This document shows, one piece after another, positions 37,984 through 57,478 of a stretch of DNA of 64,000 bases (position 1 is its first letter; every line of letters begins with the position of its first letter). The notes beneath the pieces were generated by a model, which saw only the letters and a list, made by a program, of their open reading frames with translations, was not told the origin of the DNA and searched no databases. The DNA is taken from the NCBI RefSeq assembly GCF_013626205.1, contig NZ_QHJE01000001.1:2956501-3020500 (forward strand). The letters run 5' to 3'. A program made the position numbers and the translations under genes. The DNA is from Hyphomicrobium methylovorum (lineage in GTDB: Bacteria > Pseudomonadota > Alphaproteobacteria > Rhizobiales > Hyphomicrobiaceae).

Positions 37984-38016
37984 TTTGTTAGCCCCACTTT
38001 CGTATTGTTATTGAAA

Positions 38017-38036: not shown

Positions 38037-38127
38037 CAACGGGAACAACAATTTCGCGATGTTTTGTGAGGCTGGGTGCAAGGCGCGGTGGCGATGTGGT
38101 GTGCGAATCATCCCTTCTTAAGGCGCT

Positions 38128-38244: not shown

Positions 38245-38270
38245 CGAATTGGGATTCGGTGTGTGTCCAG

Positions 38271-41392: not shown

Positions 41393-44106
41393 TGACCGGC
41401 AGTTTGCGAGCGGCGGAGACAACGCCGAACGCGGCTCGGCAAGCGGAGGGCGGCCATTCGGTTCGTGCGGTGCGCGGGCAGCTCGCGACGCTTTTTGCTG
41501 CTGTTGGTTTTTTAGGAGTCGCATTGCTTCGGACTGATCCCCTGTTGGCGGGGGTCGCACCGCAGGACGGTAGCGAGTTTGTTGCCCAGGAGCATACGTT
41601 GAACAGCACCGGTCGCGCTGTGACGCTCGCCGTGCCGTTGACGCGCGCGGGGGATGCGCTGGGTGATATCTCCGTCGTTATTGGGAAAAACGATAGCGTT
41701 CTCATTCCCAAGCAACCGCTTCTCGCGCTTCTCGAACCGGTTATCGATTCCGCCGTTCATGCCCGTCTCGCGGCGTTGCCTGGAAATTCCGGCCGCTTGT
41801 CGCTGATCGATATCAACAGCACCGGAGTCAAACTTAAGTTTGACCGTCGCCGGCTTGAACTTGTGCTGATACCGGATGCAGACGTTCATCAAACCGATGT
41901 GCCGATCACGCGTGCGCCGAAGGCCGCCGCGCCGCCCCTTCGGCCTGCCGATTTTTCAGGTTACGTGAATGTCACCGCGGGCGTCGATTACTACTGGGAT
42001 GATGGCGTTACGGGCTCGGGTCCCGGAGCGCACGTCAATCTTCAATCCGCTATGCGGTGGCATGGCAGCGTGATCGAGAATGAAGCGAGCCTTGGCGGAC
42101 GCGGGGGCGATGGTCTTTGCCCTCTCGGCGCGCGCTGCATCTATGACGACCTCAATGGTTTCAGGCGGACGCGCTCGCGTATCGTCTACGATATTCCCGA
42201 TGATGACATTCGCATTCAGGCCGGAGACGCGGACGTTTTCACCAGCGGGTTTCAGCGCGCGCCGGACGTTGCGGGGTTCACGATAGAGAAATCGCCGCGC
42301 AAATTTCACCCCGGTATCGATACGTCGCCTGGGGGAAGGACGCGTTTTCAACTCGATCGCACGTCTGAAATCGATGTGCGCGTCAACGGTGTCGTCGTGC
42401 GCCACATGCGGCTTGCGGCGGGCACGTATGATCTTTCCAATTTTCCGTTACCGAGCGGCGCGAGCGATATCGAGCTCGTCATTACGGATAACGCTGGGCA
42501 GACTCGGAGCCTACACTTCTCGACCTTTGCGGGCGATACGCTGCTGGCGCCCGGAATGAACGAATGGTCGGTTTCGGCGGGCGTTCCTTCGTATTTGTTC
42601 GATAGCGAGCGGCGCTATGAAAGCGGCGCGTTCTTCGGGACGGGATTTCTGCGCTACGGATTGACCGACGCGCTCACTGGTGAAGTAAATCTGCAGGGCG
42701 ATCAGAGGGTCGCGATGGGCGGCGTGGGTGGAAGCCTTGGAACGCCGTGGGGGCTTTTCGGTCTCGATGGCGCGCTGAGTACGAGCGATACAGGTTTCGG
42801 CTTTGCCACCCAGTTGAAGTACGACCTCACGAATTTTCGCGGGCCGTTCTCGTACTACAGCGATCTCCCGGAATCATTCCGCTTCAACGCGGAGTACCGC
42901 AGCAGGGATTTTCGGGAGCCTGGCGAATTTCTCGTTGGTGCGGGGGACATTCTCTACCCGCAGTTTCCTTATTGGCTTCGGCTCTCGGCTTATTACTCGA
43001 TGGCGCTTTCGCCGGTGACGTCGGCCACCCTCAGCGCGCGATACCAATTCGCCAATGATGATGCACTGATCCTTTCGCCCTACACGCTCAAGGATGATCG
43101 GTACGGCGCCGATCTTACACTCTCTCGCCCGCTGACATCGTGGATGAGTGGGAGCCTCACACTCGGCTATTCGAACGAATCCTATGCCTACAGAAATTTT
43201 TACGAACGGGAGGAGCCCGAGTTCCGCCTCATGGTTCGGCTGTCGGCGATCCCTGCGGAGCATACGCGGATCGAAACCAGCTACGATACGCTCAACGATG
43301 CGGGCTATGTGTTTGCGTCGCGCGAGTCTGGCTATGGCGTGGGAAGCTGGCAGACGTCGATCAATGCGCAACAGGATGGCAGTTCCGATACAAGTTCGTT
43401 CGACGGATCGATCACGTATATCGGGAACCGCAGCGAGGTGCGGGTGGCGCAGCGTGCAGGATTTGCGGCATCCGTTTTCAACGGCTTCGAGGGAGGACCG
43501 CGTGGGTCGGTCACCAGTATCGAGGCGGCGACGTCGATTGCATTTGCGGACGGAGTGATTGGAGTCGGTCGGCCGATACGGGGAAACGGTTTCGCTATCC
43601 TCAGCCCGCATGAGAGCATCGCCGACCTGACTGTTGTTGCCGGAATGCCTGAGGACGTAAGTGCCGAAGCGGATTGGCTGGGGCCGGCGGTCGTTCCGAA
43701 TTTACCCGCCTATTCGCGAACCACGATTCCTGTCGACGTTCCTGATCTGCCGGTGGGATACAGTCTAGGCTCCGGAACGTACGAAGCGGTTGCGCCTTAT
43801 AAGGCCGGATACCGAATTCAAGTCGGTTCGGCCCACTCCGTTTCTGTCTATGGCAAGTTGCTTGATGCCCAAGGCGAACCGCTGGCGTTGCTGACGGGTG
43901 CGGCCCACGCCTCGGAAGAACCTGACAGGCGTGTCGAGATTTTCACGAATTCGGCGGGTCGCTTCGCGGCCGATGGATTGTCGCCGGGGCGGTGGATCAT
44001 CGACATGGGCAGCGACGAAGACGCGACGCACTATTCGATAGACGTTCCGCCCGGAACGATCGGTCTATTCAAAGCTGGAGATCTGATGCCAGGGGGCGCG
44101 ACGTGA
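41389..44106 (+). CDS. Outer-membrane usher of a chaperone-usher pilus
   Basis: A 905-residue FimD-like usher. An N-terminal hydrophobic export segment (ATLFAAVGFLGVALL) precedes the periplasmic N domain. The barrel contains FSGYVNVTAGVDYYWDDG, YDIPDDDIRIQAGD, the plug-domain pattern (RTRFQLDRTSEIDVRVNGV, LAAGTYDLSNFPLPSGASDI) and many amphipathic strands up to about residue 720. Two small C-terminal beta domains end in IGLFKAGDLMPGGAT. It forms the secretion pore and assembly platform. It overlaps the chaperone gene before it and the tip-subunit gene after it. Confidence 0.92.
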   Translation: MMTGSLRAAETTPNAARQAEGGHSVRAVRGQLATLFAAVGFLGVALLRTDPLLAGVAPQDGSEFVAQEHTLNSTGRAVTLAVPLTRAGDALGDISVVIGKNDSVLIPKQPLLALLEPVIDSAVHARLAALPGNSGRLSLIDINSTGVKLKFDRRRLELVLIPDADVHQTDVPITRAPKAAAPPLRPADFSGYVNVTAGVDYYWDDGVTGSGPGAHVNLQSAMRWHGSVIENEASLGGRGGDGLCPLGARCIYDDLNGFRRTRSRIVYDIPDDDIRIQAGDADVFTSGFQRAPDVAGFTIEKSPRKFHPGIDTSPGGRTRFQLDRTSEIDVRVNGVVVRHMRLAAGTYDLSNFPLPSGASDIELVITDNAGQTRSLHFSTFAGDTLLAPGMNEWSVSAGVPSYLFDSERRYESGAFFGTGFLRYGLTDALTGEVNLQGDQRVAMGGVGGSLGTPWGLFGLDGALSTSDTGFGFATQLKYDLTNFRGPFSYYSDLPESFRFNAEYRSRDFREPGEFLVGAGDILYPQFPYWLRLSAYYSMALSPVTSATLSARYQFANDDALILSPYTLKDDRYGADLTLSRPLTSWMSGSLTLGYSNESYAYRNFYEREEPEFRLMVRLSAIPAEHTRIETSYDTLNDAGYVFASRESGYGVGSWQTSINAQQDGSSDTSSFDGSITYIGNRSEVRVAQRAGFAASVFNGFEGGPRGSVTSIEAATSIAFADGVIGVGRPIRGNGFAILSPHESIADLTVVAGMPEDVSAEADWLGPAVVPNLPAYSRTTIPVDVPDLPVGYSLGSGTYEAVAPYKAGYRIQVGSAHSVSVYGKLLDAQGEPLALLTGAAHASEEPDRRVEIFTNSAGRFAADGLSPGRWIIDMGSDEDATHYSIDVPPGTIGLFKAGDLMPGGAT

Positions 44107-45098
44107 CATTGCGGCGTTTGATATCGGCAGTGGCTGGCTTCATTTCGGCCGCGCTATGCCTTGTGGTGACGGCAACGCCGGGGCAGGCAGCGCTGTGCGT
44201 CGCGCCGTTTCCGATCACTGTTAGTTCGGTGACGACGACGCTGCTGTCACCTTATGATCCATTTTCGGGCACCGACGCGACACTCGGCGTTACGATTACG
44301 TTGTCGAACAGTCTCATTTCTCTTGGTTGCGACGTTTCCATCTCATTTACGCGCTTGGCGGGGTTGCCCGCTGTCATGAGCCAGGGCGCGAATTCGTTGC
44401 AGTACACGATAGAGTCGCCAGGCGGGGCAACGCTTCTGCAGACAACAGGCTTTGTGCAAGGCTCTAGTCCTGCTCCCGCCAATCGCATTGACGCCGTTGT
44501 GCCATTGCTTGGCAGCGTATCCGTCAATGTCATCATCCGTGTTCCGGCGGGCCAACTGGTGGCGGCTGGAAACTATTCGGATCTGCAGGTCACCCTGCTT
44601 GTCGTCTCGCGAGGGGTTTTGTTGAGCAATACTCCAAGAGCCATCATTGCGCAGCAGGCGTTCGTTCCATCGATTTCGGTGGTGTCAAAGTGCGTTCTGC
44701 CCGCGCCAAGCTCCTCGACGCTCGATTTCACATCCGCGATTTCGCACGGGGTGCCCAATCCGGCGATTGTGAAGTCCACGCAGTTCACGAACGTGCAATG
44801 CACGGCGCCGTCCATTCTGCGTCTCAGTGGGTCAGCGATGCAGCCTGTCTTGGCGACGCCGCCCAAAACGGGGTTCGATAACTCCATCAACTGGCGCGCG
44901 AACGGGACGTTCGGGAATGCTTCGAGTTCGCTGAATACGTCGATTGCGTCTCAAGCCGATAGCGGCTCGAAGAACGTCGGTTCAGGTGCGACCTCCAATG
45001 GCAACATCAATGTCGATGTCAATTTGCTCAGCGGAAATCCGATCATCAGCGGCAATTATTCCGGCGTGCTGAAGGTAACGATCGACCCCAATCTTTAG
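44103..45098 (+). CDS. Two-domain SCPU subunit, probable tip adhesin
   Basis: A 331-residue exported protein: signal peptide (LISAVAGFISAALCLVVTAT, cleavage near GQA-ALC), then two spore-coat-U domains. The first begins ALCVAPFPITVSSVTTTLLS with later CDVSISF. The second begins VVSKCVLPAPSSSTLDFTSA with CTAPSILRLSG, and the protein ends NYSGVLKVTIDPNL. A two-domain subunit at the end of Csu-type operons is the tip adhesin. The start is a GTG at 44103 overlapping the usher stop (GTGA). A hairpin follows. Confidence 0.85.
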   Translation: MTLRRLISAVAGFISAALCLVVTATPGQAALCVAPFPITVSSVTTTLLSPYDPFSGTDATLGVTITLSNSLISLGCDVSISFTRLAGLPAVMSQGANSLQYTIESPGGATLLQTTGFVQGSSPAPANRIDAVVPLLGSVSVNVIIRVPAGQLVAAGNYSDLQVTLLVVSRGVLLSNTPRAIIAQQAFVPSISVVSKCVLPAPSSSTLDFTSAISHGVPNPAIVKSTQFTNVQCTAPSILRLSGSAMQPVLATPPKTGFDNSINWRANGTFGNASSSLNTSIASQADSGSKNVGSGATSNGNINVDVNLLSGNPIISGNYSGVLKVTIDPNL

Positions 45099-45126
45099 TC
45101 GCGGAGACGGCTAGCCGACGCACGAA

Positions 45127-45160
45127 TGCGCACCCCCGCGTTGTCGGCGAAGGGTGCGCA
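45127..45160. terminator. Hairpin between converging pilus and ebo operons
   Basis: A 9-bp inverted repeat TGCGCACCC/GGGTGCGCA (45127-45135 and 45152-45160) with a 16-nt loop lies between two converging operons. It has no T-run, so termination is plausible on position only. Confidence 0.45.
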
Positions 45161-45188
45161 GCGGCATGTTCAGCACTGCTGGTTTGCG

Positions 45189-46082
45189 TCAGCTCTTGGT
45201 GTCGACTTGCGGAGTTTGTCCGCCGCGCAGGACCGTGTTGCCCTGATAAAGCGTCCGCTGATCGATCGGCGCGGGCTTCAGCCAGTCGTCTTCCTTGATC
45301 TGGCCGCTCTGCCCGTAAGCCGCGAGCGCATTTGCATACGTTACCAAGCGGATGTCGCTATCGGAGATGCCTTGCGCTGCCATCAGCTCGGCCGTTTTGG
45401 GAACCGACAGCGGATCGGATATGCCCCAATCGCATGCGGAATCGACGATCAACCGTTCGGCGCCGTATTGTTTCACGAGTGCCGCCATGCGTTCCGCGGT
45501 CATCTTCGAGTGCGGGTAGATAGAGAACGCCGCCCAGAAGCCACGGTCTTTCACTTCTTGGATCGTCTCTTCGTTGACGTGATCGATGACGACGCGGTTT
45601 GGCGACAGCTTGTGTTCGAGGATCACGTCCATTGAACGCGATGCGCCGCGCTTCTTATCGCGATGAGGCGTGTGGATCATGACCGGCAAATCGAGTTCGC
45701 GCGCGAGATCGAGCTGCAACCGAAAATACTTGTCCTCAAGCGCCGTCTGTTCGTCGTAGCCGATTTCGCCGATGGCAACGACGCCCTCTTTGACGGCAAA
45801 CGAGGGCAGAAGGTCCATCACCGCTTCCGCAAGTTCCTCATTGTTGGCTTCCTTGGAATTGAGGCCGATGCAACAATAGTGACAGATACCGAACTGACCG
45901 GCGCGGAAGCGTTCGAAGCCGAGAATGTGCGAAAGGTAATCGCGATAGCTTCCGGCGTTCGTGCGTGCTTGCCCTGTCCAGAACGCAGGCTCGATGACGG
46001 CGACGACGCCAGCCTTTGCCATTGCTTCGTAGTCGTCGGTCGTGCGCGAGATCATGTGCGCATGCGGGTCGATGTAGGGCAT
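45189..46082 (-). CDS. eboB: EboB, TatD-like metal-dependent hydrolase of the ebo cluster
   Basis: A 297-residue amidohydrolase-fold protein. DPHAHMISR at the start, GVVAIGEIGYDEQTALED, LPVMIHTPHRDK, VVIDHVNEETIQEV and LIVDSACDWGISDPL provide the metal-binding His, Glu, His, His and Asp of the TatD-like group. The reaction is unknown; the ebo cluster is linked in cyanobacteria to export of scytonemin precursors. The last 35 residues (KPAPIDQRTLYQGNTVLRGG and beyond) extend past the barrel. It is the last of five leftward genes, 34 bp after eboA. I name it by family and context. Confidence 0.85.
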   Translation of the reverse strand: MPYIDPHAHMISRTTDDYEAMAKAGVVAVIEPAFWTGQARTNAGSYRDYLSHILGFERFRAGQFGICHYCCIGLNSKEANNEELAEAVMDLLPSFAVKEGVVAIGEIGYDEQTALEDKYFRLQLDLARELDLPVMIHTPHRDKKRGASRSMDVILEHKLSPNRVVIDHVNEETIQEVKDRGFWAAFSIYPHSKMTAERMAALVKQYGAERLIVDSACDWGISDPLSVPKTAELMAAQGISDSDIRLVTYANALAAYGQSGQIKEDDWLKPAPIDQRTLYQGNTVLRGGQTPQVDTKS

Positions 46083-46116
46083 AGTATAGAGGCTCCTTCG
46101 TGGGCGATGCGCTCGG

Positions 46117-46995
46117 CTAGCGGCAGATCGAGTTCCAGGTTATGCGCTGATTTGCAACGCGGTCCACCACCGCGCTGTGCTGCTTCAGCGCCTGTTGCGC
46201 AGCTGGCAGGGTGCTTTCAGAAAGAGAGAGGGCGGCAGCGTTTGCTTCCATCTCAGTGTTTGATCGAAGCGCTTTGACGAGCGTGGCGAGATCCTGCTCG
46301 CGCACGTATGGCCCGATGCAGCGCCAGATTTCCGGCGAGACTGCGCGTCCCGCTGCCCAGCGTTCATGCACGTAGTCGATCAGCGTTGACGCGAGGTCGG
46401 GATTGCGACGCTCGTCGATGCCTTGGATCGGCGCGAGCACGCTTTCGATGAAGAACGCTTTCAGCACCATTTGATTCCACTGCGCTTCATTGAACTCTTC
46501 CTTCGGGAAGGGATTTCGATGCGCAACGGATTCAAATACCGGCCCCATAGCGGAGCGAAGACCCTCGGCGGCGCGTGGGACGAGTTGCTTGCTTGCGGGG
46601 TAAAGCGGGAGTCCGCGCAACAAAGCGATGTGCTCACTGATTTCGCCCGACTGGAAGATGAAATCCAAGCCGGACGCGAAGGCGGCTGCGTCTCCCTTAT
46701 AGCTTGCAAGCGCGAACAGGATGCGCGCCGTCTGGTCGACGCTCCAGCCGGTCGTATCGAGGCCAGCGCGGACACGTTCGGCTTCGGCGCGTTCGTCTGC
46801 GGAGAGTTCGAGGTCAGCCTTGCCGAGTTTCCGCGGTGCAAGGGCGACGGCGAGGGAGAGTTCGCGTTGGCGCGGTTCGCTCGAGATTGCAGAGAGGCGC
46901 TGATCAATCCAGAGGAGTTGCTCGGCGGAAACTCTGCGTTCCAGCCAGCCGCGGAGCATCGCAATCCTTGCAGGAACGTCGTCAACTTGAGACAT
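46117..46995 (-). CDS. eboA: EboA, helical protein of the ebo cluster
   Basis: A 292-residue soluble all-helical protein (MLRGWLERRVSAEQLLWIDQ, WSVDQTARILFALASYKGDA, GLPLYPASKQLVPRAAEGLR, NEAQWNQMVLKAFFIESVLA, DLASTLIDYVHERWAAGRAV). There are no catalytic motifs. The sequence pattern and its place between eboC and eboB fit EboA, annotated elsewhere as a metabolite-traffic protein of unknown mechanism. It begins 15 bp after eboC, so the genes are co-transcribed. Confidence 0.85.
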   Translation of the reverse strand: MSQVDDVPARIAMLRGWLERRVSAEQLLWIDQRLSAISSEPRQRELSLAVALAPRKLGKADLELSADERAEAERVRAGLDTTGWSVDQTARILFALASYKGDAAAFASGLDFIFQSGEISEHIALLRGLPLYPASKQLVPRAAEGLRSAMGPVFESVAHRNPFPKEEFNEAQWNQMVLKAFFIESVLAPIQGIDERRNPDLASTLIDYVHERWAAGRAVSPEIWRCIGPYVREQDLATLVKALRSNTEMEANAAALSLSESTLPAAQQALKQHSAVVDRVANQRITWNSICR

Positions 46996-47010
46996 GCTTT
47001 CGAACCAATC

Positions 47011-47859
47011 CTAGGTGCCTGGAATCGTGCGCTGGGACATTACCGTCACGACGAAGAGTGCGCAGCACGCCAGCGCCATGTCGATACGTCCTGCCGATGC
47101 AGCCGCGATTGCATCGCAGAGCGCGATCGCGGCGATCAACAACGATACGGCGCGGCCGACGTCGCCCGGTGCCCGCCGCCGCAGCCAATGCAGCGCCAAC
47201 GCAATCGCTCCGGCTGTCAGGGCGATGAAGGGAAGAACAGCCGCTTCGCTCGAAGCGTATTGAAGCCCATTTAGAAGCGGAAGGGCAAGGAGCGCGAGCG
47301 GCCACCATGAGCGAACCCGGTCAAAGCTTTCTTCTTTTGCCGCGAAGGTGAGGCCCGCGACGTAGGCGAGCAGCGCGAGCGCTGCGAGGAGCAGGGGACC
47401 GGTCAACAGCGCGCTCAGCGCTACGGCCGTGGCGATGTACACCAGCGCGCGGCATAGCCCCATGATGAACGGGGCGATCGGGTTGCCTTTGTGCCAGGCA
47501 TCATAAACGACGATCGCAGCCGCCAGAGCCAGGGCAGCGGCGGTGGTCTCCAGGCCGAACACTGAGAACACGCCGACGCCACAAATCAGCATGGCGATGC
47601 CTACAATCCAGACGCTTCGCAAACTGACTTTTTGTGACGGGATCGGACGGGTGGGGCGTTCGACGGCATCGATTTTCTGGTCGAAGGCATCGTTGAGAAC
47701 CATGCCGGCGGTGTAAAGCAGCGATGCCGCAAGCATCACGAGCACGACGTAATCATCGAACACGGCGCCGGTCAGCGCCGTTGCTGCGAGGACGTTGCTC
47801 CAAACTGTCGGCAGGTTGGAGACGCGGGCTAGCCGAAGAAACGTGCCGAGCTTGCTCAC
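47011..47859 (-). CDS. eboC: EboC, UbiA-family prenyltransferase
   Basis: A 282-residue membrane protein with about eight helices. LGTFLRLARVSNLPTVWSNV and LNDAFDQKIDAVERPTRPIP contain the N-D-x-x-D-x-x-x-D motif that binds the prenyl diphosphate. The second aspartate-rich motif of typical UbiA enzymes is weak (SFDRVRSWWPL). It probably prenylates the small molecule made by the ebo enzymes, anchoring it in the membrane, which is inference. Translation should start at the GTG at 47859, overlapping the eboE stop as GTGA; a longer frame to 47997 lies inside eboE. Confidence 0.88.
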   Translation of the reverse strand: MSKLGTFLRLARVSNLPTVWSNVLAATALTGAVFDDYVVLVMLAASLLYTAGMVLNDAFDQKIDAVERPTRPIPSQKVSLRSVWIVGIAMLICGVGVFSVFGLETTAAALALAAAIVVYDAWHKGNPIAPFIMGLCRALVYIATAVALSALLTGPLLLAALALLAYVAGLTFAAKEESFDRVRSWWPLALLALPLLNGLQYASSEAAVLPFIALTAGAIALALHWLRRRAPGDVGRAVSLLIAAIALCDAIAAASAGRIDMALACCALFVVTVMSQRTIPGT

Positions 47860-49055
47860 GTGCCGAGTTCCTTCAGCACCCAATCGAGTTCGCGAACGAT
47901 AGCACTCGTCATGTCGCTCTGGCGGAGTTCCGACGGTAGCACGCTCCAGGTGTACGTTTCGACCTCCAGATGCGGCGCGACCGTGCGCTCGCGGCAAATG
48001 CGAAGCACATCGCGCAACGAGGCCTGCGTCGATTGCAGGGTTTCAAATCGATCGACGAAAACAGGCACGTGGCAGTGAACGCGCCATTCTCCGCCTGCTT
48101 CGCCTCGGCCGAGTGCCGCGAATGCGTCAGCGAGGTCGGTGTGGCGTGTGATGGCGCCATTTCGAGATTCAACCGTCTGATGCAGATAGACTCCATCGTC
48201 GAACTTCGCGAGTTCGGCTTTGGTACCCGGCTCGACGTTGGCCACCCGAAGAGCTGAGCTCAATTGTATTTTTGGGATGCGGATGCCTGCGCGCTCAACG
48301 CGTTCCAGTATCTCGTCTGGGTTTTCGAATTCGACCGCGGAATGACATACGTCAAAGCAGAGGCCGATGTGCTGCCGGAGCGCGGCTTCCGCATCTTCTT
48401 TCGAAGCGCCAGTCAGCGCCGCAAATTGCGCAACAGCAGAGTCTGCGAACAGGTGTTGCGAGAAATAGTCGATCGCCTCGTCAGTGGTTTCCAGGAAGCA
48501 CGCGGGCTCGGGTTCGATAGCGAGAGCGATTGTTTGCCCGGTCGTTTTGCGAAGCGAATGCAGGTGCGCGGCGCAAGCAACCAGCGCATGCGTAATTGCT
48601 TCGACGTCGGCGTCCGTTGTGATGTGAGCTTTGAAGCCACCTGGAACAGTGCTGATGCTCGTTTCCGAGCCGTTAGGCGCGAGTTTTGACAGGATGTTCG
48701 CGACGCGACGTGTGAAGTCCAGGCGCTCAGGACGACGCCAGTCGGGCTCGTACACCTGCTCCTTCACGCGCTGCCCGTGAAAAGGGCCGTAGGGAAACGC
48801 GTTGATTGTGAAGACGTACAGACCGTTGTCAGCCAGGAACTGTTGAAGTTCGGCGAGCGTATCCGGTTGCTCCAGTTCTGCGGCGGCGATCGCCGACAAG
48901 CGAAGGCCGACGCCCATCGGGGCATCGGGAGATATGGCTGCTTTTACAGCAGGTAGATTCCGGCGAAGCGCAGTATTGATTTCGGCCCACGTTTCGCCGG
49001 CGTGGATGTTGGTGCAGTATGTGAGGTGCGGCCTGCCCGGGAGAGGAAGCTGCAT
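47856..49055 (-). CDS. eboE: EboE, AP-endonuclease-2/xylose-isomerase-like TIM-barrel protein
   Basis: A 399-residue TIM barrel. HLTYCTNIHAGETWAEINTA at the start, VFTINAFPYGPFHGQRVKEQ, TIALAIEPEPACFLETTDEA, IGLCFDVCHSAVEFENP, RVHCHVPVFVDRFE and PHLEVETYTWSVLP give the Glu, His and Asp residues expected to bind metal. The family includes epimerases and isomerases of sugar-like compounds. EboE proteins are annotated as metabolite-traffic proteins with unknown reaction. Its start overlaps the eboD stop by one base (TAATG) and its stop overlaps the eboC start. Confidence 0.88.
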   Translation of the reverse strand: MQLPLPGRPHLTYCTNIHAGETWAEINTALRRNLPAVKAAISPDAPMGVGLRLSAIAAAELEQPDTLAELQQFLADNGLYVFTINAFPYGPFHGQRVKEQVYEPDWRRPERLDFTRRVANILSKLAPNGSETSISTVPGGFKAHITTDADVEAITHALVACAAHLHSLRKTTGQTIALAIEPEPACFLETTDEAIDYFSQHLFADSAVAQFAALTGASKEDAEAALRQHIGLCFDVCHSAVEFENPDEILERVERAGIRIPKIQLSSALRVANVEPGTKAELAKFDDGVYLHQTVESRNGAITRHTDLADAFAALGRGEAGGEWRVHCHVPVFVDRFETLQSTQASLRDVLRICRERTVAPHLEVETYTWSVLPSELRQSDMTSAIVRELDWVLKELGT

Positions 49056-50269
49056 TAGGCCGGCATCTCCTCGCGAAGCCAGTCGATCGCTTCGACGATC
49101 AGTTTCGGGTCCATCGTGTGGACTTCGACACCAACGCCGATGGCAGACAGCAGCGTGATGGACAGTTCGCCGCCGAGATGGGCGCGGAACTCTTCAAGCC
49201 CGTCGAGCACTTTCAACCCGCCGCTCGCGTTCTTTTCACCGGCCGCTTCGTGCCAAAGAGTGAATCCGAGTTGTTCAAGAAGACGGCGCACACGGATGTC
49301 GTCGCCTTCCGGCAGCAATCCGGAAATGACGGAGTAGCGCGTATCCAAAGCGATGCCGATGGCGACGGCTTCTCCGTGGCGTAGGGTATAATTGGAGAGT
49401 GTCTCGAGCTTGTGAGCTGCCCAGTGGCCGAAATCGAGCGGCCGCGCATTGCCGCGTTCGAAGGGATCGCCGCCCTGGGCGATCTGGCGCATGTGAAGCA
49501 TCGCGCAGTGACGGATCAAGCGGTCCAGCGGCTCAGACTGAAACAGGGCTAGTGCACCCGCCTGATCTTCAAGCCACTTGAAAAACTCGCCGTCACGGAT
49601 GAGGGCAACCTTCACAGCTTCGGCCATTCCGGCGCGCTTGTCGCGTCCCGGCAGCACGTCAATGAATGCTGAGTCGTTGATGACCGCAGACGGTGGCTGG
49701 AACGTGCCGAGCAGGTTCTTCACGCTGAAAGCGTTGACGCCGTTTTTGACGCCGACGCCGGAATCGTTTTGCGCCAGCACCGTCGTCGGAACGCGGATAT
49801 GGCGAATGCCGCGATGAGTGGTTGCGGCGACGTATCCGATGAGATCGAGAACTGCGCCGCCACCGATGCCGACGACATACGAGTGCCGGTCTATGCCTGC
49901 GTCCACGAGGCGCCGCTGAAGCGTTTCGACGATTGTCGTGTCGTTCTTGCAGATCTCTCCGCCATCGACGCATTCGACGGGATGTACGAGATCAAATGCG
50001 TCGGTGTGCGCGAGCGCGTAATTCGAGATCCGGCGCGCAATGTCGGGCATCTGCTGTTCGACGCCGCTGTCGATAAAGAACGTCACGCGGGGTTTGTTCG
50101 GTCCGCCGTTGCTCGTGATGCACTCACGGAGGGCAGTATTCCCAGGAGAAAAAATATCTCGGGTGAAGAGAACGGGATATTCGTATGGGACGGAAAATCG
50201 CTGGTAGTAGGTTCGGATCTGTCCAGGTGCTTCGAACTTCTCCAGTGCGTCGCTGATTGTGCTCGACAC
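49055..50269 (-). CDS. eboD: EboD, 3-dehydroquinate-synthase-like sugar phosphate cyclase
   Basis: A 404-residue member of the sugar phosphate cyclase superfamily. VVGIGGGAVLDLIGYVAATT, IRVPTTVLAQNDSGVGVKNG, VNAFSVKNLLGTFQPP and KRAGMAEAVKVALIRD correspond to the NAD- and substrate-binding motifs, and GHWAAHKLE with LRHGEAVAIGI supply the metal-binding histidines. The DSGVGVKNGVN stretch is closer to the 2-epi-5-epi-valiolone synthase branch than to AroB, so it may close a sugar phosphate other than DAHP. It is the first gene of the leftward ebo operon; the start is GTG 50269 with GGAG upstream. Confidence 0.88.
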   Translation of the reverse strand: MSSTISDALEKFEAPGQIRTYYQRFSVPYEYPVLFTRDIFSPGNTALRECITSNGGPNKPRVTFFIDSGVEQQMPDIARRISNYALAHTDAFDLVHPVECVDGGEICKNDTTIVETLQRRLVDAGIDRHSYVVGIGGGAVLDLIGYVAATTHRGIRHIRVPTTVLAQNDSGVGVKNGVNAFSVKNLLGTFQPPSAVINDSAFIDVLPGRDKRAGMAEAVKVALIRDGEFFKWLEDQAGALALFQSEPLDRLIRHCAMLHMRQIAQGGDPFERGNARPLDFGHWAAHKLETLSNYTLRHGEAVAIGIALDTRYSVISGLLPEGDDIRVRRLLEQLGFTLWHEAAGEKNASGGLKVLDGLEEFRAHLGGELSITLLSAIGVGVEVHTMDPKLIVEAIDWLREEMPA

Positions 50270-50744
50270 TCGTTAAACTCCATTCCCATGCTTGCGCTGT
50301 CTACGTTGCGGCGATCGCAAATTGCAAGGCCAGCTCGATATCTTAGCTGCTTTTTGCCCGTTTTTGCGTGCGAATTTTTAGCTTTCCTAATGATGGCGTA
50401 GCGAGGCTGGAGCACGCGTTGTGGTTGCTCGCACGTGATTTTGTCCGGCTCGATGATTGGTCGTGTGCGCTCGCCGTTTACCTTCCAACACCCGCAGGGA
50501 ATTATTCCCGGTTCAAAGTTCGATTTTGCTGATCCGCATGAAGATCCTATTTGCTTTCTCATCAGTAGATAAGTTTTCTCACATTTAGTTGATCAGAGCG
50601 GAGGTGAGCTTGTGCCGATGAATGCCGTAACGTAGCGTGATTACGCCGCAGACGCATCAAATGCGTCAGCGCGGTGAAGTACGGCGCCGATCCAAGGTCC
50701 CTCGGTTCGCGCCGACAGCAAATTCCATAAGGGAGTAACGTCCA
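50270..50744. promoter_or_regulatory. Divergent promoter region of the ebo cluster
   Basis: About 475 bases between eboD and the sugar dehydrogenase gene, with no accepted gene. It carries a perfect 7-bp inverted repeat GACGCAT-CAA-ATGCGTC (50651-50667) and a nearby CGTAA-10 nt-TTACG (50628-50647). Both lie 75-120 bp before the dehydrogenase start and could be operators or leader hairpins. AT-rich segments near 50330-50390 and 50560-50600 could hold promoters. Confidence 0.4.
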
Positions 50745-52169
50745 ATGCGAATGCGGTTAGAACTTGCCGCGTCGATTGCCGCTGCCGCCACGCTCATGCT
50801 TGGTTCGGTTCCGGCATTTTCTCAGGTCGTGCCGACCAAGGCCGACGAAGTTGCCCGCCCAGGCGGAAAGCTTCCGGGCGATCCCAAAATCGCGCTCGTC
50901 AAAGTTGCAGACGGATTTTTGGATCCTGTCGGCGTTGCGTCAGCTTTTGACGGATCGGGCCGCATCTTTGTTGTCGAACGTCAGGGCAAGATCCGGGTCG
51001 TCACCAAGGACGGAAAGGTCAACGAAAAGCCGTTCCTCGATCTGACGAAGAACAGCCCGCTTGGCTCGGAAGTTCAGACCGGCTTCGTCGAGCAGGGACT
51101 CTGGTCCGTTGCTTTCGATCCGAAGTTCAAAGAAAACGGCTACTTCTTCGTGAGCTATTCGTCGCTGCCCTTCAACGGCGCGCACGTTATCGCACGTTAT
51201 ACGGTTGATCCGGCCAGCCCGGACGTTGTGACGGTCGAGCAGGCAAACAAGTCTGTTAAGGTCATCATCAATATCCCGCAGCCCTACTACAACCACTACG
51301 GCGGCGGCATTCAGTTCGGGCCCGACGGCTATCTTTATGTCGGCAAGGGCGACGCGGGCTGGGAAGGCGATCCTTTGGACGCCGGCCAGAGCAAGAATGA
51401 GCTTTGGGGCAAAATGCTTCGCCTCGACGTCAACACGCCGGATGGCGTCGGCTACAAGATTCCCGACACCAACCCGTGGGCTCACGCTTCGCAGGCACGC
51501 ATGATGACGCTGTTCGGCGTCACCGAAGAGCAGTTCGCACAGATCCACATGGGCTCGCGTCCTGAAATCTGGGCTTTCGGTCTTCGCAATCCCTACTCGT
51601 TCCACTTCAACAAGAAGACTGGCGACCTGTTCATCGCTGACGTAGGCCAGAACCATCTCGAAGAGATCGACTGGCAGCCTGCGTCCAGCAAGGGCGGCGA
51701 GAACTACGGTTGGAAGCACAACATGGGCACCAACTGCCATCCGATGTTGGGGCCGAATGACAAATGCCCGATCGTCGGCGTTCTTCCGGTCGCAGAATAC
51801 CCGCACCAGACTCCGTATCCCGGCGCTGAAAAGCTGAAGGATGGCTGGGGCTGCTCGGTGCAGGGTCTCGGCGTTGCCAACTATGCTGGCATGAACGGCG
51901 TCTTCCTGACGGGCGACTGGTGCTCGGGCCGGGTCTTCGGAACTGGCTGGGACGGCACCAAGTGGCAGCTGCAGGAACTGGCGCAGACCGCGCTTCAGTT
52001 TACTTCCGGCAACAATGACGAGGACGGAACGGTTCTCGCCGTTAACTGCAACTGCTTCTACACCGACGACAGAGGCGCCACGGCAAACCCGCCGGGATCG
52101 CTCTGGCGCGTTGTAGCGGCTGACGCTGTGCCTCCGGGCGCCGAAGTTGCAAAGACGAAAAAGAACTAA
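50745..52169 (+). CDS. PQQ-dependent sugar dehydrogenase-like protein (soluble GDH fold), exported
   Basis: A 474-residue exported six-bladed beta-propeller. It has a signal peptide (cleavage near AFSQ), VGVASAFDGSGRIFVVERQG and WSVAFDPKFKENGYFFVSYS. NHYGGGIQFGPDGYLYVGKG holds the likely catalytic His, and GLRNPYSFHFNKKTGDLFIA and DVGQNHLEEIDWQPA follow. This is the soluble aldose/glucose dehydrogenase family, which usually uses PQQ and passes electrons to a cytochrome. A cytochrome c gene follows directly and eboF after it, so the substrate may be an ebo-related sugar or cyclitol (inference). GGGAG precedes the ATG. No pqq genes are in the window. Confidence 0.85.
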   Translation: MRMRLELAASIAAAATLMLGSVPAFSQVVPTKADEVARPGGKLPGDPKIALVKVADGFLDPVGVASAFDGSGRIFVVERQGKIRVVTKDGKVNEKPFLDLTKNSPLGSEVQTGFVEQGLWSVAFDPKFKENGYFFVSYSSLPFNGAHVIARYTVDPASPDVVTVEQANKSVKVIINIPQPYYNHYGGGIQFGPDGYLYVGKGDAGWEGDPLDAGQSKNELWGKMLRLDVNTPDGVGYKIPDTNPWAHASQARMMTLFGVTEEQFAQIHMGSRPEIWAFGLRNPYSFHFNKKTGDLFIADVGQNHLEEIDWQPASSKGGENYGWKHNMGTNCHPMLGPNDKCPIVGVLPVAEYPHQTPYPGAEKLKDGWGCSVQGLGVANYAGMNGVFLTGDWCSGRVFGTGWDGTKWQLQELAQTALQFTSGNNDEDGTVLAVNCNCFYTDDRGATANPPGSLWRVVAADAVPPGAEVAKTKKN

Positions 52170-52193
52170 GTCGAAAAACTACGCTTGAAATAC

Positions 52194-52228
52194 CGGGGCC
52201 TCTTTGCGAAATCTGCAGAGAGGCCCCG
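52194..52228 (+). other. Strong intercistronic hairpin between dehydrogenase and cytochrome c
   Basis: A 14-bp stem CGGGGCCTCTTTGC/GCAGAGAGGCCCCG with one G-U pair and loop GAAATCT. There is no T-run. It is likely to stabilise or process the upstream message, giving different levels of the two products. Confidence 0.6.
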
Positions 52229-52265
52229 TGACTTACGGTTAGTCCAGAACCAAGAGATTTATTTC

Positions 52266-52730
52266 ATGCAGTCGAACACGCGCTTCTTCACCATCCTTCT
52301 CGCCGGGTCGCTTCTTGCGCTGACGCCCGCTTTGACGGCTCCGGCCGTCGCCGACGTCAAGTTCCTCAATGCGCTTGACGATTCCCCGCTCGATCTTGAG
52401 CCGATCAAGGGCGAGACGTTCACCGATGCGGTCAAGTCGTTCCACAAGGACGGCAAGAACCCGTACAACGGCGATGCAGCGGCGATTGCAGCCGGCAAAA
52501 CCCAATTCGAAGAGCACTGTGTTGCCTGCCACGCCGACGATGCGTCGGGCGGAATGGGGCCGAGCCTCGTCGACGACGTGTATTCGAACACGCGCGCGAA
52601 CACGGATGTCGGCATGTTCGAGATCATTCACTCCGGTGCTTCGGGTGCGATGCGCTCGTTCTCGATCCGCGGTGTCACGCAGGACCAGATCCTGCAGATG
52701 ATCGCTTACATTCACTCGCTCAAGAAGTAA
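52266..52730 (+). CDS. Exported mono-heme cytochrome c
   Basis: A 154-residue protein with a signal peptide (FFTILLAGSLLALTPALTAP, cleavage near AVA-DVK), an N-terminal extension of about 45 residues, and a class I cytochrome c domain with the heme site CVACH and GGMGPSLVDD. A distal methionine is likely in GAMRSFSIRG, and the protein ends QILQMIAYIHSLKK. It is the probable electron acceptor of the sugar dehydrogenase encoded just before it. The ATG at 52266 gives the signal peptide; the frame is open from 52185. eboF starts 31 bp after its stop. Confidence 0.88.
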   Translation: MQSNTRFFTILLAGSLLALTPALTAPAVADVKFLNALDDSPLDLEPIKGETFTDAVKSFHKDGKNPYNGDAAAIAAGKTQFEEHCVACHADDASGGMGPSLVDDVYSNTRANTDVGMFEIIHSGASGAMRSFSIRGVTQDQILQMIAYIHSLKK

Positions 52731-52761
52731 GAGCCTTCGTTCGAAGGGCGGGTCTCCCATC

Positions 52762-54153
52762 ATGACTCCCACGATCGTCATCAACGTCGTCGGTTTGACG
52801 CCGGCGTTGATCGGTGATGCGACGCCGAACATCCGGCGCTTTGCCGAGCGTGGTGCTGCGCGTGCACTGACGACGATCACGCCCGCCGTCACGTGCAGCG
52901 TTCAAGCAACCTTGACGACCGGGAGTCTGCCGCGAGAGCACGGAATTGTCGCCAACGGCTGGTTTTTCCGCGAGGTGCTGGAAATCTGGCTTTGGCGGCA
53001 ATCGAACAAGCTGGTCGCGGGCGAGCACATCTGGGACGCCGCTCGAAAGCAAGACGCGAACTTCACAGTCGCGAACTTGTTCTGGTGGTACGCGATGGGC
53101 GCTGCGACGGACTATTCCGTTACGCCGCGTCCGATCTACAAGGCCGACGGCCGCAAAATACCGGATTGCTATTCGGATCCACCGGAGCTTCGCGACGAAC
53201 TCTCAGCGAAGCTCGGCGTGTTTCCGCTGTTTCAGTTCTGGGGACCGGCGACGACCATCGCATCCAGTCGCTGGATTGCGGACGCGGCCAAGCACGTGAT
53301 GACGGCGCGCGATCCGACGTTGACGCTCGTCTACCTTCCGCATCTCGACTACGGCTTGCAACGGTTCGGGCCGGACGCGCCGGAAATTCGTTCGGACCTC
53401 ACCGAGATCGATGACGTGGTGGGCGATCTGATCGCCGAGGCGGAAAAGCTCGGTCGTCGGGTCGTTTTGCTTTCCGAGTATGGGATCGTTCCCGTTCGGC
53501 GTCCGGTGCATATCAATCGCGCGTTGCGCGAAGCCGGGCTGCTGGCGGTTCGAACGGAGCAGGGCGGCGAGCTGCTCGATATTCCACGTTCTCGGGCGTT
53601 TGCAGTTGCCGATCATCAGATCGCGCATGTTTATGTCCGCGATCCCTCGGCGCTGCCGCTGGTGCGTGCGGTGTTGGCGAAGCTCGACGGTATCGACGCC
53701 ATTCTGGACGAAGACGGCAAGCGTGGGCACGGGCTCGATCATTCCCGGTCTGGCGAGATCGTCGTGCTTGCAGCAAGCGACGCCTGGTTCACGTACTATT
53801 ATTGGCTCGATGACGCGCGTGCGCCGGATTTCGCGCGGACGGTCGAAATTCACCGCAAACCTGGATACGATCCGGTCGAGCTTTTTCTCGATCCCGCGAT
53901 CCGATTTCCGAAGCTTGCTGTCGGATGGCGTCTGCTGAAAAAGATTCTTGGCTTTCGGACGCTGATGAATGTCATTCCGCTCGACGCCAAGCTGGTGCGC
54001 GGTTCGCATGGGCGGGCTGATACACCCGCCGAACACACGCCGGTCTTCATGTCATCCGAGCGTGACTTTGTGCCGGACGGTCCGGTTGATGCGCGGGACG
54101 TTAAAGCGTTGGTGCTCCGGCATATCTTTGAACCGCCATCGTCCAGGTCGTAG
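52762..54153 (+). CDS. eboF: EboF, alkaline-phosphatase-superfamily protein of the ebo cluster
   Basis: A 463-residue protein of the nucleotide pyrophosphatase/phosphodiesterase branch. TPAVTCSVQATLTTGSLPRE holds the likely threonine nucleophile, and the fold is supported by ATPNIRRFAERGAARAL, WWYAMGAATDYSVTPRPIYK and LVYLPHLDYGLQRFGPDAP. Canonical metal ligands look altered: the first Asp is replaced in INVVGLTPAL, the D-H pair reads LLSEYGIVPV, and the His of D-x-x-G-H reads Gln. No signal peptide is visible. It shares a strand with the dehydrogenase and cytochrome genes, 31 bp behind the latter, apart from the leftward eboD-B genes. Confidence 0.85.
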   Translation: MTPTIVINVVGLTPALIGDATPNIRRFAERGAARALTTITPAVTCSVQATLTTGSLPREHGIVANGWFFREVLEIWLWRQSNKLVAGEHIWDAARKQDANFTVANLFWWYAMGAATDYSVTPRPIYKADGRKIPDCYSDPPELRDELSAKLGVFPLFQFWGPATTIASSRWIADAAKHVMTARDPTLTLVYLPHLDYGLQRFGPDAPEIRSDLTEIDDVVGDLIAEAEKLGRRVVLLSEYGIVPVRRPVHINRALREAGLLAVRTEQGGELLDIPRSRAFAVADHQIAHVYVRDPSALPLVRAVLAKLDGIDAILDEDGKRGHGLDHSRSGEIVVLAASDAWFTYYYWLDDARAPDFARTVEIHRKPGYDPVELFLDPAIRFPKLAVGWRLLKKILGFRTLMNVIPLDAKLVRGSHGRADTPAEHTPVFMSSERDFVPDGPVDARDVKALVLRHIFEPPSSRS

Positions 54154-54197
54154 CCGGTTCAAACTTCAGCGAGGGCCACGTTGGCCCGCTGTGCAAT

Positions 54198-54479
54198 TCA
54201 GCGGTGACTGATGGCAAGGCTGGTTGTCGTCTCTTTCTTCGTAGAGCAAACTTTGGATATCGTCTTGCACTCTGTCTGAGTGGCATAGTTCTTACGCGAC
54301 GGCTCCTTGCCATTGGCAATTTCATAGCAATGGTCGAGCAGAGAAGCGAGCGGCCGCTCATCTCCCAGCGGACCGACCGAGATCTTCTTTGGACTACGCA
54401 GCCAAAAAAACGATGCAAGCGTCGCCGCGAAGAGTAGCAGTGCCACGCTTACGATGATTTGCTTTTGCGTGCCGCTCAT
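54198..54479 (-). CDS. Small membrane-anchored protein of unknown function
   Basis: A 93-residue protein: one N-terminal membrane helix (IIVSVALLLFAATLASFFWL) followed by a soluble, charged tail with two cysteines (LLDHCYEIANGK and KVCSTKKE). GGGG precedes the ATG at 54479; the frame is open to 54545 but that part lacks features. It converges on eboF with 44 bp between stops. No family is recognised. Confidence 0.5.
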   Translation of the reverse strand: MSGTQKQIIVSVALLLFAATLASFFWLRSPKKISVGPLGDERPLASLLDHCYEIANGKEPSRKNYATQTECKTISKVCSTKKETTTSLAISHR

Positions 54480-54686
54480 AGCCCCGTTCCCCCGCCCCGG
54501 AAGATGACGTCCACGATCTTCAATCATATCAGCGGCGGACGTCAATGCTCGCTGTTTAGTCTATTGCGACTCTACACGCGCATGATATATATTAACATAT
54601 AAATATTGCTATTTGATGCGGAAAGGTAGCTGCCGAGGCGTCTTCCCCTTCTAAGTCAGATCCAAATCCAACATCGAGGTTTCTCA

Positions 54687-55193
54687 ATGCGCATGCTCGT
54701 TCTTGCTGTCACGGCGCTGATTGCTGCCGCTCCAACTGTTGCTTTTGCTCAGTCTGCTGATGTTGTCGGGCCAAATATGGCGAAGATCGGCAAGATCGAA
54801 GCGAAAGAGGGACCGCATGGTCTGGTCTTGGTGCTTAACCTCGACAAGGGTGCGCTGACCCCAGGCGCTCACGGCATTCACATCCACGAGCATGGAGACT
54901 GCTCGGATGAGGGCTTCAAGAATTCAAAGAGCCACATTAACCCGAGCAAAACCGAGCACGGATTTTTGAATCCGAAGGGACCTCATCCTTCGGATCTGCC
55001 GAACGTCTGGGCGCATGAGGATGGTTCTGTGTTGGCCGAAATGTTTGTTCCTGGCCTGTCGCTCACGGGCGAAAACGCTATCTACGATGAAGACGGCTCG
55101 GCGGTCGTCATTCACGCCAGTGCGGATGATCACATCACGCAGCCCATTGGCGGCGCCGGCGCTCGCGTGGCCTGCGGACTATTCAAGAAATAA
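54687..55193 (+). CDS. sodC: Periplasmic Cu/Zn superoxide dismutase
   Basis: A 168-residue protein with a signal peptide (MLVLAVTALIAAAPTVAFA). Copper/zinc site motifs are GIHIHEHGDCSD and SHINPSKTEHGF, followed by SAVVIHASADDHITQP and GAGARVACGLFKK, where the two cysteines can form the conserved disulfide. It converts superoxide to peroxide in the periplasm. GAGG precedes the ATG and a strong terminator follows, so it is a single-gene unit between the ebo cluster and the cbb operon. Confidence 0.95.
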   Translation: MRMLVLAVTALIAAAPTVAFAQSADVVGPNMAKIGKIEAKEGPHGLVLVLNLDKGALTPGAHGIHIHEHGDCSDEGFKNSKSHINPSKTEHGFLNPKGPHPSDLPNVWAHEDGSVLAEMFVPGLSLTGENAIYDEDGSAVVIHASADDHITQPIGGAGARVACGLFKK

Positions 55194-55253
55194 GCGTTGG
55201 ATGGTGTTTGGTCGCAAGAGCGATCAATGCAGTGCATGCATGTAAGTACCTTC

Positions 55254-55295
55254 GGGGTGATAGCGCAGACTTGGCTTCGCTATCGCCCCTTTTTC
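55254..55295 (+). terminator. Rho-independent terminator of sodC
   Basis: A 12-bp stem (55254-55265 with 55278-55289, one G-T pair), 12-nt loop, followed by TTTTT-C-TTTT. Confidence 0.88.
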
Positions 55296-55354
55296 TTTTG
55301 CAAAATATTCAAACCGCATTGAAATGGTGAATACACCGCGTTTCTCGGCCGTGA

Positions 55355-56278
55355 TTATATGCCGGGTACCTGTGGCAGATGTTTTGCCCCGTCTTTCAAT
55401 GCGTAAGTCCAGAACGCCGTAGCGGTTGGACCCAATCCTTTATCGAGGCGGTGCACCAGATTCCATTCTCGGACTACGGGTAGGTCCTTGATGTTGAGAA
55501 TGGATAGGTATCCGGCCTCGATTTCCAATTCAATTGTGTGCGCCGATATCAAGGCGATTCCTAAACCCGCCATCACCGCTTGTTTGATTGTTTCGTTCGA
55601 TCCGAACTCGATAATGGACGAGGGGTGGGCAAGAGGTGTGCCTTTGAAGAACTTTTCGACGGTTACGCGGCTGCCTGAGCCTTCTTCGCGGACAAGCAGT
55701 TTGTTTCCGATCAGCACGCTGCGGTCCATGACACGCTTGCGGCTTGCTAAGGGATGATCGGGCCGTGTGATCAGGACGTAGGGATGCGGTCCAAAGCATG
55801 CCTTGCTCGTGACGATGTCGCTCGGCGGGCGCCCCATCATCGCAATGTCGATTTCATAGTCCCTGAGAGCAGCGATCGTTTCTTCGCGGTTGCCGACCAG
55901 CAAGCGTATTTCGACGCTCGGTACGGTCTGAATAAACGCATGGATGAGTCGCGGTACGAAATACTTTGCCGTGCTGACCACGCCTATTGTGATGCTGCCG
56001 GTCTCCAGGCCCTTCAACGATTGAAGCTGTTCGGTCGTATCTTGAATCAAAGCCTCGATGCGCATCGCAGCTTCAAGCACGATGTGGCCCGCGTCCGTCG
56101 GTCGCAATCCGCTTTTCGTTCGATCGAACAAGCGCAGATCGAGATCTCGCTCAAGGAGTCTGAGTTGCTCCGTGACGGCAGGTGGCGTTAGCCCCAACCT
56201 ATTGGCCGCAATAACAATCTTGCCCGATTTTGCTATCGCAATGACAGATCGGAGCTGTCTCAGGGTCGCGTCTCGCAT
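55355..56278 (-). CDS. cbbR: CbbR, LysR-type regulator of the Calvin-cycle operon
   Basis: A 307-residue LysR-family protein. The N-terminal helix-turn-helix (TLRQLRSVIAIAKSGKIVIA, ANRLGLTPPAVTEQLRLLER) is followed by an effector domain starting TGSITIGVVSTAKYFVPRLI, which is CbbR-like. It is divergent from cbbF with 116 bp between starts, the usual arrangement for CbbR, which activates cbb genes in response to metabolites such as NADPH or sugar phosphates. An inverted repeat in the shared region may be its site. Confidence 0.92.
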   Translation of the reverse strand: MRDATLRQLRSVIAIAKSGKIVIAANRLGLTPPAVTEQLRLLERDLDLRLFDRTKSGLRPTDAGHIVLEAAMRIEALIQDTTEQLQSLKGLETGSITIGVVSTAKYFVPRLIHAFIQTVPSVEIRLLVGNREETIAALRDYEIDIAMMGRPPSDIVTSKACFGPHPYVLITRPDHPLASRKRVMDRSVLIGNKLLVREEGSGSRVTVEKFFKGTPLAHPSSIIEFGSNETIKQAVMAGLGIALISAHTIELEIEAGYLSILNIKDLPVVREWNLVHRLDKGLGPTATAFWTYALKDGAKHLPQVPGI

Positions 56279-56291
56279 TTTTCACCAGTCA

Positions 56292-56339
56292 ATAAAATCT
56301 AGCACAGAACTCATTATATTCGATTTTATCTATCTATCA
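56292..56339. promoter_or_regulatory. Candidate CbbR operator
   Basis: A perfect inverted repeat ATAAAATC-32 nt-GATTTTAT (56292-56299 and 56332-56339) occupies the AT-rich middle of the cbbR-cbbF intergenic region, where LysR-type tetramers bind two dyad sites. Promoter boxes for both genes should overlap it. Confidence 0.5.
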
Positions 56340-56394
56340 ACGAGGCGCATCCTCTTTCCACAGTCGCACTTTGGAAGCTGGAGGAGACGGGCCA

Positions 56395-57438: not shown

Positions 57439-57478
57439 CACCTCGCGAACGACTTCAATTTCTGGAACGTGAAAATTT

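Follow-up and report, generated by a model that had tools for sequence, protein, structure and literature searches.

A locus of Hyphomicrobium methylovorum raises the question of what a sugar-dehydrogenase-like gene and a cytochrome c gene are doing inside an ebo cluster. It occupies positions 45189–54153 of the 64,000-nucleotide stretch of DNA analysed here (the window), which comes from a genome of 3.4 Mb in 4 contigs. The gene map and matches to NCBIfam and Pfam place eboD, eboE, eboC, eboA and eboB in a leftward arm opposite a rightward arm of a GSDH-family gene, a cytochrome c gene and eboF, with all six of eboA–F present and clustered. An earlier note on this DNA had described the same eight genes, and all of their coordinates and strands were confirmed. 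Across the genomes sampled, the link between ebo genes and the GSDH–cytochrome pair is strong, though not universal. We lean towards the reading that the ebo cluster has captured a periplasmic redox unit that would oxidise an exported, ebo-dependent molecule; the periplasmic oxidation itself, and its substrate, we infer. The features of the locus are as follows.

45189–46082, minus strand: eboB, TatD/amidohydrolase-like, 297 amino acids (aa) (PF01026, 63.5 bits, cut-off 27; orthologues adjoin other ebo genes)
46117–46995, minus strand: eboA, 292 aa (NF035938 EboA_domain, 154.3 bits, cut-off 50)
47011–47859, minus strand: eboC, UbiA-like prenyltransferase (NF035940 EboC, 137.5 bits; PF01040)
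47856–49055, minus strand: eboE, xylose-isomerase-like TIM barrel, 399 aa (NF035939, 469.8 bits, cut-off 250)
49055–50269, minus strand: eboD, sugar phosphate cyclase family, dehydroquinate-synthase-like, 404 aa (PF01761/PF24621)
50270–50744, no strand: divergent intergenic region of 475 bp, presumed to hold promoters for both arms (gene map)
50745–52169, plus strand: type-1 GSDH-fold protein with a Sec-like signal peptide, 474 aa (PF07995, 98 bits, cut-off 25; AlphaFold2 model)
52266–52730, plus strand: small exported cytochrome c, cytochrome cL-like (TIGR03872, 98.3 bits, cut-off of 147.8 not reached; PDB matches 7c90 and 2c8s)
52762–54153, plus strand: eboF, type I phosphodiesterase/phosphatase-like, 463 aa (PF01663, 225 bits)

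The pair travels with ebo genes in Alphaproteobacteria

The family of the window genome was surveyed in 103 genomes with an EboE profile, a close GSDH being defined by at least 67% identity. The EboE model gave a sole match in 14 well-known control genomes, in Haloferax volcanii and below the cut-off. EboE was found in 18 of the 103 genomes and a close GSDH in 16; 15 genomes carry both, 3 carry EboE only, 1 carries GSDH only and 84 carry neither (Fisher p = 3e-14, kinship ignored). Inside genera, the two are gained and lost together: both are present in 3 of 22 genomes of the window genus and neither in 19, both in 6 of 8 and neither in 2 in genus g10, and both in 5 of 8, EboE only in 1 and neither in 2 in genus g11.

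The exceptions within the family are individual cases. The contig of genome G063 begins inside eboD, and in G024 a different GSDH (type 2) adjoins eboC. G094 has GSDH, cytochrome, eboF and idi (isopentenyl-diphosphate isomerase) genes on a 7.2-kb contig with no EboE match. In G082 (L047:9330–10459), eboE is truncated by ~92 codons at its start and directly adjoins a cytochrome remnant with a frameshift, and eboD, GSDH and eboF were not found within the 18-kb stretch L047; this decayed locus has the look of a deletion across the divergent arms.

Wider sampling detected EboE in 14 of 397 genomes of the order (9 new), 9 of 289 of the class (8 new) and 3 of 299 of the phylum (2 new). The ebo loci that were mapped belong to 37 genomes, 35 alphaproteobacterial and 2 outside the class (G910 and G862). 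Type-1 GSDH is present in 19 of the alphaproteobacterial genomes, type-2 in 11, both in 2 and either in 28. All six ebo genes were detected in 27 of the 35, and 26 of these carry type-1 or type-2 GSDH in the locus. Among the 28 positives, the loci of G037 and G065 are split across contigs, GSDH and eboD each lying close to the end of a contig. A cL-like cytochrome accompanies type 1 in 19/19 loci, and a different small cytochrome accompanies type 2 in 9/11. The claim in the earlier note that a dehydrogenase–cytochrome pair goes with ebo thus holds in Alphaproteobacteria, where the co-occurrence count that it had proposed for related genomes gave not zero but 15 of 103 family genomes with both and 28/35 ebo loci. 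Loci with both GSDH types, each with its own cytochrome match, were seen at L049, L051 (on a contig shared with L139), L086, L130, L131, L141 and L143.

The pair is probably one redox unit

In the converse direction, the type-1 alignment was run against a genome collection of 84,980 species, and the best 80 of 216 confirmed relatives, a choice that favours close relatives, were analysed. The nearest named relatives of the window GSDH among them are from Hyphomicrobium; the two surveys overlap in several Hyphomicrobium genomes and are therefore not independent. In Hyphomicrobium zavarzinii ATCC 27496 and H. sulfonivorans S1, a single stretch holds eboA–F, GSDH and cytochrome. Of these 80 loci, 37 have one or more ebo genes in the fetched stretch, four of them eboF only (L070, L072, L079 and L118), and 33 have three or more. 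By group, ebo genes were found at 35/37 loci in Alphaproteobacteria, 1/1 in Gammaproteobacteria and 1/2 in unplaced Pseudomonadota.

A cytochrome match lies in 78/80 of the stretches (2.7 kb off and on the opposite strand in L147), with none in L102 and L135. Of the 43 loci without ebo genes, 33 encode GSDH and cytochrome in a single open frame (31 in Acidobacteriota and 2 in Planctomycetota, L087, L088 and L091 among them), and Pfam recognised both domains in the one fused protein scanned; at the ebo loci, fusion was seen in 0/37. In this scoring, L116 was counted as separate despite an open reading frame (ORF) of 575 aa, and distances near −1800 reflect slightly overlapping matches, an artefact. 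These 33 fusions strongly support a pairing of GSDH with cytochrome in what is probably one redox unit. In a quick tree of 81 GSDHs, the ebo label takes 5 changes, compared with a shuffled mean of 27. The simplest account of these sequences would be an independent redox module that is fused in Acidobacteriota, split in Proteobacteria and tied to ebo mainly in Alphaproteobacteria.

Does the redox unit serve ebo?

The conserved co-occurrence suggests that the redox unit serves ebo. Several findings weigh against this reading. Seven of the 35 alphaproteobacterial ebo genomes have neither GSDH, and in five of these the sequence read holds only part of the ebo set: the loci of G063, G277 and G201 are at or close to the end of a contig (12 kb of the 17.7-kb contig of G277 was read), G374 and G709 show eboC, eboD and eboE only, G082 is broken, and G759 has a full set without GSDH. 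Outside the class, the ebo loci of G910 and G862 contain neither GSDH type nor the cytochrome (0/2). EboE also matched 48 plasmid records, and in the 6 examined (five alphaproteobacterial from four genera, one from Mycetohabitans) no type-1 or type-2 GSDH lies within 12 kb of ebo (0/6). Among the best 80 of 216 relatives, ebo genes are absent from the GSDH loci of Acidobacteriota (33/33), Planctomycetota (2/2) and Betaproteobacteria (5/5); because the pair occurs there without ebo, it need not act on the ebo product. Finally, neighbours may share regulation without having a common substrate.

The pair might accordingly be an ordinary periplasmic dehydrogenase for sugars or aldehydes that feeds respiration and sits beside ebo through co-expression, without acting on the ebo product, an explanation that we regard as rather unlikely. 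It is consistent with the pair without ebo, mostly fused, in Acidobacteriota, with the ebo clusters that lack the pair, with the sugar dehydrogenases among solved PF07995 relatives, and with a large TonB-receptor-like protein (named by eye) as the commonest other gene at ebo-less loci (14/43). It is harder to square with the ebo genes at 35/37 alphaproteobacterial type-1 loci in the best 80 of 216, with the joint gain and loss of pair and ebo inside genera, and with the presence at ebo loci of another GSDH type, which mostly has a cytochrome of its own.

Fold, catalytic residues and cofactor of the GSDH-fold protein

The window GSDH matches PF07995 over profile positions 4–221 of 332 only, and scores 34.8 bits with NCBIfam TIGR03606, far under the cut-off of 434.55. 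Its AlphaFold2 model is of moderate quality (predicted local distance difference test 67, predicted template modelling score 0.77); the top fold match is hedgehog-interacting protein (HHIP), followed by pyrroloquinoline quinone (PQQ)-dependent aldose and glucose dehydrogenases. HHIP is also the best PDB sequence match, and the match printed for type 1 spans residues 51–250 only.

H184, R281 and N282 are invariant across 14 homologues and are the equivalents of His144, Arg228 and Asn229 of soluble glucose dehydrogenase (sGDH). In sGDH these are the likely base and residues surrounding the PQQ ketones (PMC6881810; this and the other papers are cited here for part of their text). The equivalence of H184 and His144 follows from the equal ranges 116–205 and 76–165, and that of the Arg-Asn pair from an aligned RNP motif. 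A C-terminal Arg-x-Arg motif, the second arginine of which presumably also binds the PQQ carboxylates, was not found in the printed type-1 and type-2 rows (8 of 25 aligned) at the corresponding position, where the C-terminal alignment is weak. The motif is kept in 5/5 aligned PDB homologues and in the other GSDH-family protein of the window genome. Arg408 of sGDH binds PQQ (PMC6881789). For the motif, the five PDB homologues make a better reference, since the other GSDH-family protein of the genome (L148:572–1858, in G000, the window genome) is not a perfect PQQ enzyme: it keeps the Arg-x-Arg but lacks a His where the catalytic one aligns. The window GSDH thus has the propeller fold and the catalytic His and Arg-Asn positions in common with the soluble PQQ dehydrogenases sGDH and Asd (PMC6881789, PMC6881810), whereas their C-terminal PQQ arginines were not found in it.

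The capacity to make PQQ was assessed by PqqE, whose model matches 14/14 control genomes below the cut-off, so that only matches over the cut-off were counted. In the family, these occur in 16/16 genomes with type-1 GSDH, including the window genome, compared with 80/103 overall; G024, which carries type-2 GSDH only, has none. A further 48 genomes were drawn from the 80 GSDH loci (one of them, Hyphomicrobium zavarzinii, L073, is shared with the family survey), and PqqE is over the cut-off in 11 of them and not in 37: in 9/16 with ebo and 2/32 without, and in 0/25 of the acidobacterial and planctomycete GSDH-bearing genomes searched. Non-producers such as Escherichia coli take up external PQQ (PMC6881789). 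Because PQQ can be scavenged, a missing PqqE casts doubt on PQQ use without disproving it. The label 'PQQ-type sugar dehydrogenase' given in the earlier note is therefore unsupported in that wording: the C-terminal Arg-x-Arg was not found, PqqE is under the cut-off in 37/48 genomes, and 'sugar' is merely the name of the family. The cofactor may be PQQ, made or scavenged, or another cofactor.

These observations bear on a further explanation, that the GSDH-fold protein is a binding or scaffold propeller like HHIP and not a PQQ oxidoreductase. HHIP tops both the PDB sequence and the fold matches, the C-terminal PQQ-binding arginines were not found, and PqqE is over the cut-off in only 11/48 of the gene-bearing genomes searched. 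We nevertheless judge a scaffold improbable, given that the catalytic His and Arg-Asn are invariant in 14 homologues, that GSDH is fused to or paired with cytochrome c, that non-makers such as E. coli can use external PQQ (PMC6881789), and that the printed HHIP match of type 1 is limited to residues 51–250. The window protein is a GSDH-fold protein, probably with an oxidising function.

The cytochrome partner

The best family model for the cytochrome is cytochrome cL/MoxG (TIGR03872); its cut-off is not reached, hence the protein is termed only cL-like. Cytochrome cL (MxaG) is the electron acceptor of the PQQ-dependent methanol dehydrogenase. It is the closest model and is among the best PDB matches, with a CxxCH site and a conserved Met in common, whereas the window protein is under the cut-off and has a GSDH-fold protein as its partner. 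C86, C89 and H90, which form the single CxxCH haem site, and M130 are invariant in 13 aligned cytochrome sequences, and M130 is a candidate distal haem ligand. The most likely start is the ATG at 52266. Judged by eye, GSDH and the cytochrome have Sec-like signal peptides, and none was seen on EboF. A propeller joined to a cytochrome is also known from fungal AA12 pyranose dehydrogenase, the haem of which is b-type, whereas the window partner is c-type (PMC6881789, PMC6881810).

The Ebo enzymes and the prenylation question

The genes of the leftward arm are tightly packed: eboD and eboE have one base in common (TAATG), eboE and eboC overlap by GTGA, and gaps of 15 and 34 bases follow. Read from the sequence, the probable start of eboC is the GTG at 47859, which gives the GTGA overlap with the eboE stop; the open frame extends to 47997. 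The 137.5 bits of EboC do not reach the NF035940 cut-off of 250, although this is the top of 22 UbiA-type models listed, and the name rests on the best model match and on the position between eboE and eboA instead of the cut-off. EboA scores 235.7 bits with the full-family model (EboA_family), under its cut-off of 320.

A separate AroB is encoded at G000:C1:1458080–1459123 (362.8 bits, cut-off 305), which would leave EboD free for another substrate. Sedoheptulose 7-phosphate is one proposed EboD substrate. When the operon was named in 2016, the eboD clade was argued to use a substrate other than that of AroB, and an isoprenoid-cyclitol product has already been proposed for ebo (PMC5133447). 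The earlier note had likewise suggested a prenylated compound. This idea gains a hint from idi, which lies within the ebo locus in 21/35 alphaproteobacterial genomes, but idi is absent from the window, and both the window genome and G047 carry it elsewhere. In the family, idi is found in 51/103 genomes, with or without ebo; because it is nearly always single, the cluster idi is usually the only copy in the genome. In vitro, flavobacterial relatives of EboC attach a farnesyl group to 8-hydroxyquinoline-2-carboxylic acid (PMC9235831). Two further experiments indicate cargo different from a prenylated cyclitol: Nostoc ebo mutants are blocked in exporting the scytonemin monomer (PMC6282210), and the Pseudomonas EDB cluster yields tryptophan-derived indoles in E. 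coli (Zhou 2022, via the review PMC9655573). No single compound accounts for all of these results.

The flow could also run inwards, with the periplasmic unit oxidising an incoming compound that the Ebo enzymes process inside, for detoxification or recycling. Enzymes resembling hydrolases, phosphodiesterases and isomerases are frequent in catabolic pathways, and the ebo genes of the Ketogulonicigenium plasmid sit among sugar-catabolism genes. Such a role seems very unlikely to us: EboC is a prenyltransferase by family, with relatives that farnesylate quinoline acids in vitro (PMC9235831), and the Nostoc mutants are blocked in export (PMC6282210).

Neighbouring genes

After eboF, window positions 54687–58396 hold genes for a Cu-Zn superoxide dismutase, a CbbR-like regulator, fructose bisphosphatase and phosphoribulokinase. 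A Calvin-cycle link was rejected as coincidence, the window CbbR being unmatched in each of the 39 stretches mapped from the family, order, class and phylum; weak matches of 25–30% in L082, L136 and L156 are presumably other LysR regulators. SodC (54687–55193) was likewise rejected as a member of the unit, with one other stretch matched (L047, 36%). On the eboB side, Pfam identifies PapD-like chaperone and usher genes at 40586–44106, and the cluster probably has a pilus-type assembly operon next to it. No tandem repeats were found in window positions 38000–58000.

At other ebo loci, a gene for a small membrane protein of the TMEM220 family recurs, often beside eboD (L042, L049, L050 and L052–L055), and GAF and SDR genes were also seen as neighbours. 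Some of the recurrent neighbour ORF groups are apparently antisense or overlapping, and 2/7 groups scanned had no Pfam match. Among the plasmids, one from Salipiger has a PQQ-family (PF01011) dehydrogenase gene shortly after eboB, and a Salipiger plasmid EboD (L154:10085–11986, 633 aa) has an N-terminal VTT membrane domain that could tether the cyclase to the membrane. In the Ketogulonicigenium plasmid, where no type-1 or type-2 GSDH lies within 12 kb of ebo, genes for a cytochrome c and a DUF7133 protein are ~5 kb from eboB, past isomerase, regulator and transporter genes; eboC of the K. vulgare WSH-001 plasmid (L153:13176–14023) is annotated as two overlapping frames and may be broken. On a Mycetohabitans ebo plasmid, genes for a LodA/GoxA oxidase and a tryptophan 7-halogenase lie ~7 kb upstream of eboD (L158:1–2630).

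A proposed periplasmic oxidation step for an ebo-dependent molecule

The window resembles the ebo operon of eustigmatophyte plastids and bacteria in that all six of eboA–F are clustered (PMC5133447). The operons described there have inserted glycosyltransferase, tyrA, dsbA and unnamed genes, whereas the window instead adds GSDH and cytochrome (and its relatives idi); the words 'cytochrome', 'isopentenyl' and 'Hyphomicrobium' are absent from the main text of that paper. A full ebo cluster, as in the window, is also part of the EDB cluster for nematode repulsion in Pseudomonas fluorescens NZI7 (PMC6282210). In the scytonemin ebo/scy system of Nostoc punctiforme (PMC6282210), the Ebo proteins act inside and the exported ScyE is thought to oxidise the exported molecule outside. 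The window likewise combines Ebo enzymes with an exported oxidoreductase-like protein; its cytochrome partner is an addition to the Nostoc scheme, and its GSDH reaches 16.5 bits (E 0.0048) with the ScyD/ScyE family model, the cut-off of which is 80. The 'L-sorbosone dehydrogenase' of the Nostoc paper was rejected as a link, being only a periplasmic marker protein there (PMC6282210). In the main texts of the open-access literature, including PMC5133447, PMC6282210 and PMC6092422, no earlier description of a GSDH–cytochrome pair with ebo was found.

In the captured-unit reading, EboD would cyclise a sugar phosphate in the cytoplasm, and EboE, EboB and EboF would modify it. Membrane-bound EboC would add a prenyl chain, as its family and the idi neighbours in relatives suggest. 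By analogy with Nostoc, the product would either be exported itself or, as a lipid carrier, assist the export of another molecule. The exported molecule would be oxidised in the periplasm by the GSDH-fold protein, and electrons would pass to the adjacent cytochrome c and on to respiration.

A broader and, in our view, doubtful extension is that ebo is the inner half of a general make–export–oxidise relay, to which lineages add differing periplasmic oxidising units. Ebo would make a prenyl-linked cyclitol, either exported itself or carrying cargo outwards, and what results from the oxidation, perhaps a redox-active lipid in the periplasm, would be the ebo product. The units would then be type-1 GSDH with a cL-like cytochrome, type-2 GSDH with the other cytochrome, the eight-bladed-type PQQ dehydrogenase of a Salipiger plasmid and the cyanobacterial ScyE.

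The conserved exported pair offers a soluble handle for finding an ebo-dependent substrate by cytochrome reduction. If the pair acts on ebo cargo, the pattern seen in Nostoc, Ebo-dependent export followed by periplasmic oxidation, would be broader than scytonemin.

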